From assembly GCA_030427805.1 (NCBI GenBank), contig JAUICP010000001.1:1-64000 (forward strand): a stretch of 64,000 nt of DNA, written 5' to 3'. Under the pieces are notes generated by a model, which was not told the DNA's origin, searched no databases, and saw nothing but the letters and a program-made list of their open reading frames with translations. Below are positions 29,897 to 33,190 of this stretch, piece by piece. Source of the DNA: Bdellovibrionia bacterium. GTDB lineage: Bacteria; Bdellovibrionota; Bdellovibrionia; Bdellovibrionales; JAGQZY01. A program made the translations under genes and the position numbers. Each line of letters opens with the position of its first letter. Positions within the stretch are counted from its first letter, which is position 1.

Positions 29897-30490
29897 ATGG
29901 GACTTCGTGGATTTTTTGTTTTAATGAGTACAATTAGTTTTTGGAGTCTAAGCGCTTCGGCACTCATGTGTAGCGACGACATCAATGCGGAAACGAGCAA
30001 ATACCTCAAACAAGGTGATCGCATCACCCTCAGTTCAACATCAACTGAACCAATAAGAATTTTCGGCAATCAAAATGGAGTTCTTTATGGAACTAATCTT
30101 TTAGCCAATGGCGAAGGCGACGTTGTTTCTTTACTGAGGCCAGACTTAGAGTATCCGCAGAATGTAGAAATAACCAATCAAGAAGAGTTTGTCGTCGACG
30201 AAGTACAGACGGATCGAATCATTTTAAAGAATACAAAGTCGAATACCACGTATATACTTGCCTGTGGAAATAGTGAATTTCATGGCGAAACAAGTGTCCT
30301 CGAGAATACCGGGCAATGTACTCTTATAGACTTAATTAATAATCACATTCCAACAGCTGAAATCTCTGTGGCGCGCTCAGGCTTTCAAGTGAGTGACGAA
30401 GACCTCTGTACTCGGGAAAACGCTGTTGTGCCCGCGAGCCACGAAATAAATTCTATTGTTCAAGCCGGGCCCGTACAGCGGGACATTTAA
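29897..30490 (+). CDS. Secreted protein of unknown function
   Basis: A 197-residue protein with a signal peptide (residues 3-23, probable cut after SASA) and a mature domain rich in beta-prone residues. Four or more cysteines (CSDD, LACG, QCTL, DLCT) may form disulfides. The ribosome site GGAGAG is well placed. I do not recognise a family. It is followed by a complex hairpin region and lies alone. Confidence 0.72.
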   Translation: MGLRGFFVLMSTISFWSLSASALMCSDDINAETSKYLKQGDRITLSSTSTEPIRIFGNQNGVLYGTNLLANGEGDVVSLLRPDLEYPQNVEITNQEEFVVDEVQTDRIILKNTKSNTTYILACGNSEFHGETSVLENTGQCTLIDLINNHIPTAEISVARSGFQVSDEDLCTRENAVVPASHEINSIVQAGPVQRDI

Positions 30491-30602: not shown

Positions 30603-30828
30603 GACCCCACTCTGTAAAAAGAAAACGGGCTATTCCTACCCATTTAGTTATCAAAGACTGAAGAGGCGATCGATTCTGAAACAGATATCTAGGGAAGCTC
30701 CCCTTTTGATTCGGTCTTCTAAACAATGATGAAGAATTCTTAGCACATCGATTTGCCGTTCTATGAAATACTTAAAAACAACCTGTTTTCACAGTTACCG
30801 TAGAACGTTATTTGTATGGAGGATCATC

Positions 30829-31065
30829 ATGATTGAAGTGCCGCCGAAGTCGGATCTGCGCTGGCAACAATTCATCAAAAATGGGGAGAACTGCACTTTT
30901 AGCTCTCTTGCCACCAAGATGATGTATAAGCGCTGTCAAATGCTGTTAAAGCTAAACCCCGATAAACCCGAAAAATTTAATGAAGCCGTAGCTATTGCCC
31001 ATGAGTATTTTACGATCAATAAGGCTATTGCTGAGTCTGATTTAAAAATAGCTCTGGCAGCGTAA
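30829..31065 (+). CDS. Small protein upstream of the FIST-like paralogues
   Basis: A 78-residue soluble, helical protein when started at the ATG at 30829, which has GGAGG eight bases upstream; a frame open from 30763 is unlikely to be used in full. It carries two cysteines (ENCTF, KRCQM) and a C-terminal helix (AVAIAHEYFTINKAIAESDLKIA). The next gene begins 17 bp later, so it probably works with the two 333-residue paralogues. Family not recognised. Confidence 0.7.
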   Translation: MIEVPPKSDLRWQQFIKNGENCTFSSLATKMMYKRCQMLLKLNPDKPEKFNEAVAIAHEYFTINKAIAESDLKIALAA

Positions 31066-31082
31066 CCAACGGGAGTCTCAAA

Positions 31083-32084
31083 ATGAAAAAAACATTATTT
31101 AATTTAGACGAAGCAAAAACTGTAATTTCGAGCGGAAAAAAATTTATGGTGGCTGGTCCCGAAGAATTACTTTCTCAACTTCCTAAGGGCGACTGGATCG
31201 GCGGAACCATTCCATACTTTATGGGACAGGATGGGGGCGTTAAGTCTAAGGACCTTATTCAAATCACCGAATTAGATCCTAAAATTAAAAATTTTGCCAT
31301 TAAAGAATATTCTGCTGAAGAGTTAAAGAATATTCCAAAAGATTATTTCGAAAGAGGGATGTCGTTTATCATAATTCCAGCGTTTTCAGATCCTCATCTT
31401 GCGTACGCAAAAGATGCCGTAACATTTGATGGAATTTTTAAAAATCCAATTCTTGGCTGGGTTTCAGGTTTTGACCTGGATGATCCCCAAGGAAAGGCTG
31501 CAGTGTTTAATGGAAAATCTGGAAAACTCATCTTTGATAAGGCTGTGGTTTTACATTGTGAATTAGACTCTAGTTTTGCCGCTAATGTCGACATCATCAA
31601 TCCGTTTGTTTCTGACCGCGAGGGAATTACTATTGAGTTTCCTGAATCAACATGGAGCCCGTCTAAATGCCTTATAAACGGGGAAGAGGCTAATTTTGCA
31701 GAGTTTCTACAAAAAATTAATCATAACGAACAACTGCCAATAATGACAGACTTAGGGGACTCCGATATTAATGTCTGTATCATGAAAATCGATTCCGAAA
31801 ACAAAAAAGTCGATTTGTATAATCCGGTTATTGCGGGCTTCACTTACTATCTGGCTAGACCATTAAACGATTACGCCGAAGACTTTAGGAGCCAGGCGCC
31901 TAGTCACGAAGCTGATTGGTCTTGTAATTGTGTTTTGAATTACCTCTATTCTGGGCTCGAAGGAAAGAAACTCAATCAGCTGCAGGGACCGGTAACGTTT
32001 GGTGAAATCGCCTACCTATTACTCAATCAAACCTGCGTTTACTATGACGTTAAAGAGGTAGAAGCCCTACAAAAAGCAAGCTAA
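31083..32084 (+). CDS. FIST-like protein, first of two tandem paralogues
   Basis: A 333-residue cytoplasmic protein without signal peptide. The N-terminus has LPKGDWIGGTIPYFMG (about 33-48). The C-terminal part reads DWSCNCVLNYLY, then GPVTFGEIAYLLLNQTCVY (about 304-322), which resembles the end of the FIST_C sensory domain (conserved Cys, GEI, NxT). FIST proteins sense small ligands, perhaps amino acids, in signal transduction. This match is by eye and partial. Its twin follows at 32141 with the same length and about half of the residues identical. It is co-oriented with the 78-residue protein. Confidence 0.78.
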   Translation: MKKTLFNLDEAKTVISSGKKFMVAGPEELLSQLPKGDWIGGTIPYFMGQDGGVKSKDLIQITELDPKIKNFAIKEYSAEELKNIPKDYFERGMSFIIIPAFSDPHLAYAKDAVTFDGIFKNPILGWVSGFDLDDPQGKAAVFNGKSGKLIFDKAVVLHCELDSSFAANVDIINPFVSDREGITIEFPESTWSPSKCLINGEEANFAEFLQKINHNEQLPIMTDLGDSDINVCIMKIDSENKKVDLYNPVIAGFTYYLARPLNDYAEDFRSQAPSHEADWSCNCVLNYLYSGLEGKKLNQLQGPVTFGEIAYLLLNQTCVYYDVKEVEALQKAS

Positions 32085-32097
32085 ATGAATAATATAT

Positions 32098-32126
32098 AAA
32101 ACCTGAGCTCATGGAGCTCAGGTTTT
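32098..32126 (+). terminator. Strong 13-bp hairpin between the paralogues
   Basis: AAAACCTGAGCTC, ATG, GAGCTCAGGTTTT form a perfect 13-bp stem with a 3-nt loop ending in four T. It lies 13 bp after the first gene and ends only 14 bp before the start codon of the second, in place of a normal ribosome site. It may terminate transcription, or control entry into the second gene. Confidence 0.75.
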
Positions 32127-32140
32127 ATGGGTAATTAATT

Positions 32141-33142
32141 ATGAACGATTCTTTATATTCACTCACCGAAGCCAAAAAAATAATTGCCTCTGGAAAGCCC
32201 GTTCAAGTAGCCGGCCACGAAGGCTTATTGAAACAACTACCTAAGGGAAACTGGATCGGCGGGACCACCATATATTTTCTGGGGCAAACTGGTGGAGTCA
32301 CTTCGACTGAACTTATACAAATATTACCGATCAATGAATTTGTCGAAAGTATCTCAATAAAAAAGTACTCACATAATGATCTGGAACAGATAACCGATGA
32401 CTACCCTAAGAATGGAACTTCCTTTATTATTATTCCTGGGTTTTCTGAAGCCCATATTAAATTTGCAAAAGACTCCTTCATGTTTTCAAAATTGTTCGAC
32501 TCTCCTCTTTTGGGGTGGATATCTGGTTTCGACCTCAAAGACCCAGATGGGCAAGCCAAAGTTTTTAACGGACAAACAGGAGAGATTTTAAATAACGAAG
32601 CCATCGTAATGCATTGTAACCTTCCGTCGAGATACGGCTCTTATCTGCAAATTGTGAATCCCTTCGACGTTAAAGAAACAAGTAGCAAAGTACAGTTCTT
32701 TGAAACAACCTTCGAGGTAAAGAATTGTTTAATTGATGGGAAAGAGACCAATTTTGCTAGCTTTCTTGAGGCCAATAATGTCGACACCAAGTACCCTCTT
32801 TTAACAGACATTGGGAATGATGAGAAAAATGTTAGTTTTAAAAATATCGATCTCGATAAAAAGGTCGTTGAACTCTACGCCCCAGTTTTTCCGGGTATCA
32901 CTTATTACTTCGCAAAGCCCAATACTTCTTACAAAGAAAATTTCTTACAGCGAACCCCCAAAGGTGGGGCCGACTGGTCTTGCAATTGTATTTTAAATTA
33001 TTTGTATTCCGAATTGGAAGGAAAGAAAATTGGTCAACTTCAAGGCCCCGTTACATTCGGAGAGATTGCTTACATTCTGCTCAACCAGACCTGTGTTTAC
33101 CACAAAGTAACCGATAAAATGCAATTGAGAAATGCCGCTTAA
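32141..33142 (+). CDS. FIST-like protein, second of two tandem paralogues
   Basis: A 333-residue twin of the gene before it, aligned without large gaps. Both keep LPKGxWIGGT, SFIIIP, GW(V/I)SGFDL, the DWSCNC(V/I)LNYLY motif and the ending GPVTFGEIAY(L/I)LLNQTCVY. The most conserved part is the C-terminal 55 residues, suggesting the functional site is there (two Cys of CNC plus the later Cys). Its start at 32141 has no good Shine-Dalgarno and lies just behind a strong hairpin. Function unknown; sensory role inferred from FIST_C resemblance. Confidence 0.78.
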   Translation: MNDSLYSLTEAKKIIASGKPVQVAGHEGLLKQLPKGNWIGGTTIYFLGQTGGVTSTELIQILPINEFVESISIKKYSHNDLEQITDDYPKNGTSFIIIPGFSEAHIKFAKDSFMFSKLFDSPLLGWISGFDLKDPDGQAKVFNGQTGEILNNEAIVMHCNLPSRYGSYLQIVNPFDVKETSSKVQFFETTFEVKNCLIDGKETNFASFLEANNVDTKYPLLTDIGNDEKNVSFKNIDLDKKVVELYAPVFPGITYYFAKPNTSYKENFLQRTPKGGADWSCNCILNYLYSELEGKKIGQLQGPVTFGEIAYILLNQTCVYHKVTDKMQLRNAA

Positions 33143-33168
33143 ACATAAAGTATAAAGGAGTTCAAGAG

Positions 33169-33190
33169 GGCCCATGACGTGGGCCTTTTC
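33169..33190 (+). terminator. Intrinsic terminator after the FIST-like genes
   Basis: GGCCCA, TGACG, TGGGCC followed by TTTTCTTT. It lies between converging genes, 26 bp past the stop of the second paralogue. Confidence 0.75.

Follow-up and report, generated by a model that had tools for sequence, protein, structure and literature searches.

A FIST-like predicted fold and a dedicated small partner protein for the uncharacterized family DUF6976 in a Bdellovibrionia gene cluster

The window analyzed here, a stretch of 64,000 nucleotides of forward-strand DNA from a Bdellovibrionia bacterium, contains a cluster of three genes at positions 30829-33142, all on the plus strand. The first gene (30829-31065) encodes a 78-residue protein, an uncatalogued helical domain with the consensus PPKxDPxW...LATKM...R...FFxKN...D. 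It is followed by two tandem genes for proteins of 333 residues each, copy 1 (31083-32084) and copy 2 (32141-33142), the second of which lacks a small gene of its own. An alternative in-frame ATG upstream, at 30763, would give a small protein of 100 residues; the start at 30829 is preferred because it is preceded by GGAGG and because homologues begin at the motif M-x-PP-K. The two large proteins are identical at 169 of 333 positions (51%), with 46 identities in the last 70 aligned columns, in agreement with a sequence-only reading of this DNA that had described a 78-residue ORF and two equal-length paralogues, about half identical. Relative to the orthologues in a sister genome (L001, which is genome G302, assigned to the same genus by match coordinates equal to those of the same-genus genome G291), dN/dS is 0.025 for the small gene, and 0.048 and 0.093 for the two large genes. 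These ratios rule out a coding artefact, and all three ORFs are thus real genes under strong purifying selection.

The sister genome has the same tandem along with a third copy, and in the window's own genome a third pair of small and large genes is likewise encoded elsewhere (G000:C11:98443-99426). Copies 1, 2 and 3 share one clade of the tree, so that the duplications are, as judged by this phylogeny, local to the lineage and specific to the genus. It is plausible that the two tandem paralogues are sensors for related ligands that arose by this genus-specific duplication. Two predicted hairpins, both absent from the sequence-only reading, accompany the genes. A strong one between the paralogues (32096-32128; -23 kcal/mol, z -5.9), terminator- or attenuator-like and with its stem kept in the sister genome, may lower the expression of copy 2; the other, terminator-like and on the plus strand, closes the cluster (33165-33189; z -3.4).

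The neighbors of the cluster in the window include genes for L27, RNase E/G and PilT, and no signalling gene, either kinase or c-di-GMP related, is present among the flanking genes. We rejected PilT and RNase E/G as functional partners, given that rng, on the far side of the terminator-like hairpin, is transcribed towards the cluster and that pilT lies farther out than rng. Upstream of the cluster is a 197-residue ORF (29897-30490) with a signal-peptide-like start and no Pfam family.

Both large proteins match the Pfam family DUF6976 (PF22396) over model positions 2-320 of 321, with 381.7 and 380 bits against a curated cut-off of 27 bits (E 2.9e-114 for copy 1 and 9.6e-114 for copy 2). We found no function, structure or paper for DUF6976 in the literature and databases searched. 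The suggestion that the module is undescribed therefore holds in part: the large proteins belong to a catalogued family, although no paper was found that names it, and the small protein belongs to none. The FIST models of Pfam (PF08495 and PF10442) give no match at E<=1 to either large protein, so neither is a FIST family member by that measure. The same genome also encodes two genuine FIST_C proteins that score above the Pfam cut-off (G000:C6:969628-970065 and G000:C8:445034-445423).

Profile comparison reaches further than these models. A DUF6976 profile aligned by hhalign with a profile of 16 genuine FIST_N+FIST_C proteins from the same phylum gave probabilities of 74-90% (P 2.7e-5 to 1.4e-6); the first orientation gave 74-78%, with P about 2e-5 over some 280 colinear columns, and the other gave 90%. 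Controls were null, with a probability of 0.4% for the reversed FIST profile and 0.1% for an unrelated ISL3 profile. Searching PDB sequences directly with DUF6976 returned nothing useful. Within the alignment, Cys283 of copy 1 (codon at 31929-31931) and Glu308 (codon at 32004-32006, in the motif GPVTFGEIAY), each invariant in 41 of 41 relatives, align with the FIST cysteine C322 and with E358, the glutamate of the FIST (F/Y)GE motif. The FIST profile in turn aligns this pair with C326 and E362 of human FBXO22. In the aligned columns, DUF6976 shows no evident counterpart of the other FIST invariants (T205, P219-A220, R259 and R325 of the FIST protein L065), and the spacing from Cys to Glu is 25 residues in DUF6976 versus 36 in FIST. 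Because these invariants are missing, we regard DUF6976, going by profile and predicted fold, as a divergent offshoot of the FIST fold and not as a member of the FIST family in Pfam's sense.

The fold was predicted with AlphaFold2 for copy 1, using as input only sequences from the window and related loci, and the model has a pLDDT of 87.5. Compared with known structures, it best matches the FIST domain of FBXO22, with Z scores of 11.8, 11.8, 11.6 and 10.9 for four entries (8ua3 and 8s7d among them) over model residues 2-327. The next matches are chorismatases (4bps and 5a3k; Z 7.5 and 7.0), which a Dali search with the FBXO22 FIST domain also returned (PMC11185555), and all others score 4.8 or less. 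Foldseek also ranks FBXO22 first, but with E of only 0.004-0.02. FBXO22 itself is a eukaryotic F-box ubiquitin ligase with about 10% identity to DUF6976, and the likeness lies in the fold and in the Cys/Glu pair. The FIST resemblance, which the sequence-only reading had placed at the C-terminal end, thus extends over the whole protein in both the profile match and the predicted fold.

The chorismatase matches raise the alternative that DUF6976 is an enzyme resembling chorismatases or cyanuric acid hydrolases, with Cys283 and Glu308 in its active site, the small protein as a subunit or chaperone, and no part in signalling. Invariant Asn, Tyr and Trp residues could complete such a site together with the Cys and Glu, and in FBXO22 the reactive cysteine C326, with E362 beside it, is nucleophilic (PMC13316043). 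However, the chorismatases, metabolic enzymes compared with DUF6976 by fold, are clearly outscored by FBXO22, the profile match is to FIST proteins, several relatives lie in signalling neighborhoods, and no recurrent metabolic operon surrounds DUF6976 among the relatives examined. We regard the enzyme as improbable.

No family for the small protein was found in Pfam, NCBIfam, PHROGs or PADLOC; scattered Pfam matches of single members (best E 0.005) were inconsistent and were taken as noise. When DUF6976 loci were scanned with an HMM of the domain, each locus examined had a homologue immediately upstream, the third copy and a decayed one in genome G206 among them; copy 2 of the window is the exception. 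The two genes are separated by -4 (an overlap) to +70 bases. Across the phylum (291 genomes searched), DUF6976 and the small domain co-occur in 15 of 15 genomes (Fisher 3e-24), and a single extra small-domain match outside these genomes is marginal (E 0.007). In one genome (G026:C47, locus L032) the two are fused naturally into one ORF of 417 residues. An obligate companion of DUF6976 that is at times fused to it, the small protein has strong backing for its proposed role as a partner from adjacency, co-occurrence and fusion alike. This pairing sets DUF6976 apart from FIST genes, since none of those examined has a small domain nearby.

Several loci show variations on the pair. At G206:C19:8609-9398 (L041, L055), DUF6976 has decayed through several stops and frame breaks beside an intact small-domain gene, and a protein with a chemoreceptor signalling domain is encoded a few kb away. 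An Ideonella partner protein (L047:10859-11980) has two tandem small domains. At G262:C44 (L059:7797-8440), the pair has another small-domain protein beside it, transcribed divergently, and an NrfHA-like cytochrome pair, named from its sequence, lies upstream.

A small gene placed first, overlapping genes and a patchy distribution could also describe a toxin-antitoxin or defence-like module, in which the small protein would be the antitoxin and DUF6976 the effector. The pair occurs on three plasmids, and tyrosine recombinase genes adjoin DUF6976 at two loci: L050 in G074, where the gene was named from sequence, and L046 on a Sphaerotilus plasmid, where it is annotated. Recombinase neighbors and plasmid-borne copies suggest lateral transfer of the genes. 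Against a toxin-antitoxin module stand the sensor-type predicted fold, the natural joining of the two proteins in a single ORF, and the survival of the small gene beside a decayed large gene in G206. Searches also gave no PADLOC family match and no viral relative, on which grounds we rejected a defence system and a phage origin, respectively. We consider a toxin-antitoxin arrangement very improbable.

The neighborhoods in relatives bear on the output of the module. A dCache-HAMP histidine kinase lies directly upstream of the pair in L051, and a hybrid histidine kinase directly downstream of the fusion in L058. In L060 a histidine kinase and a REC-HD-GYP regulator stand beside the pair; L063, L061 and L064 have the same arrangement, as judged from similar gene starts and from a single kinase tested by profile. 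L062 has the regulator downstream and a kinase upstream, and in L047 a PAS-GGDEF-EAL protein is encoded downstream. Kinase adjacency, at about 4 of 12 contexts, is modestly above chance (P about 0.001 to 0.035), a rough estimate based on 12 contexts judged by hand to be independent and on the kinase densities of three genomes. Beside the third copy and the pairs of Methyloversatilis, Hydrogenophaga and Ectothiorhodospiraceae, whose neighbors were partly profile-tested, no kinase or c-di-GMP gene was recognized. The observation that the cluster lacks the usual FIST context is accordingly right for the window, whereas several relatives do adjoin kinases and c-di-GMP proteins.

This arrangement recalls NosRPK of Burkholderia, which comprises a REC-HD-GYP regulator, an NO sensor of the FIST type and a kinase that has no sensory domain (PMC12570481). 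With FIST_N+FIST_C proteins including NosP, DUF6976 has in common the colinear full-length profile, the predicted fold, the Cys and the (F/Y)GE motif and, in some relatives, kinase and HD-GYP neighbors, although it falls below Pfam detection. A NosP-like operon of histidine kinase and c-di-GMP response regulator is absent from the window and present in some relatives (L060, L062). A specific form of the sensory reading is that DUF6976 is a NosP-type heme/NO sensor proper that controls a kinase. The predicted FIST fold, the Bdellovibrio-like neighborhoods matching the NosK/NosR architecture, and the NrfHA-like cytochromes beside the G262 copy are all consistent with it. However, most copies have no adjoining kinase, and no histidine is common to DUF6976 and the conserved FIST positions, H105 being invariant within DUF6976 only; heme/NO binding by DUF6976 is thus unsupported by the alignment. 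We judge this form unlikely.

In Beta- and Gammaproteobacteria, the small domain is the C-terminal part of a longer protein (about 240 residues), and the N-terminus of this protein resembles the N-termini of ISL3 transposases, their DNA-binding end. The likeness is confined to this N-terminal half and is absent from the window's small protein. It appears as sub-threshold Pfam matches (Zn_ribbon_ISL3 is PF14690), as a blastp match to one ISL3 protein (L097) at E 5e-6 in a small database, and by hhalign at P 0.0012 versus 0.27 for the reversed control. For one such partner (L008), a fold search yielded nothing beyond weak HTH matches, with Z of 4.4 or less, and the proteobacterial partners lack both the CPxC zinc cysteines and the catalytic DDE domain of ISL3 transposases. 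The head, mainly on grounds of sequence, suggests DNA binding in many Proteobacteria. A broader proposal is that DUF6976 and the small domain form a separate, widespread FIST-type system that always uses a dedicated adaptor, and that the Beta- and Gammaproteobacterial adaptor captured an ISL3 DNA-binding head, which made the FIST sensor a transcription regulator. We offer this tentatively, as possible but on balance not expected.

Our main reading, to which we assign a probability of about 65%, is that the cluster is a sensory module of an accessory type, consisting of a dedicated small adaptor and FIST-fold sensors that have been duplicated in the genus. The FIST-fold protein would bind a small signal, which may be heme/NO, like that of NosP, or else an electrophile or redox cue acting on the conserved cysteine; the small domain would dock on the protein and pass its state on. 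In several Bdellovibrionota the output would be the neighboring histidine kinase and REC-HD-GYP (c-di-GMP) regulator, as in NosRPK, and in many Proteobacteria it would be DNA, reached through the fused ISL3-transposase-like head. No gene for the target adjoins the cluster in the window genome, where the module would act in trans. Copy 2, the genus-specific duplicate, probably shares one adaptor with copy 1, possibly at a lower level set by the intervening hairpin.

For DUF6976, an unstudied Pfam family, these results predict a fold and point to a likely homology, and they identify an obligate partner. Both the FIST link and the partner are apparently undescribed in the literature searched, and together they would extend the FIST sensors past the reach of sequence models. 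FIST signalling becomes testable here through one small protein and one Cys/Glu pair. As FBXO22 is recruited through the same cysteine in targeted protein degradation, the conservation of this residue in bacteria bears on the original role of the FIST cysteine.
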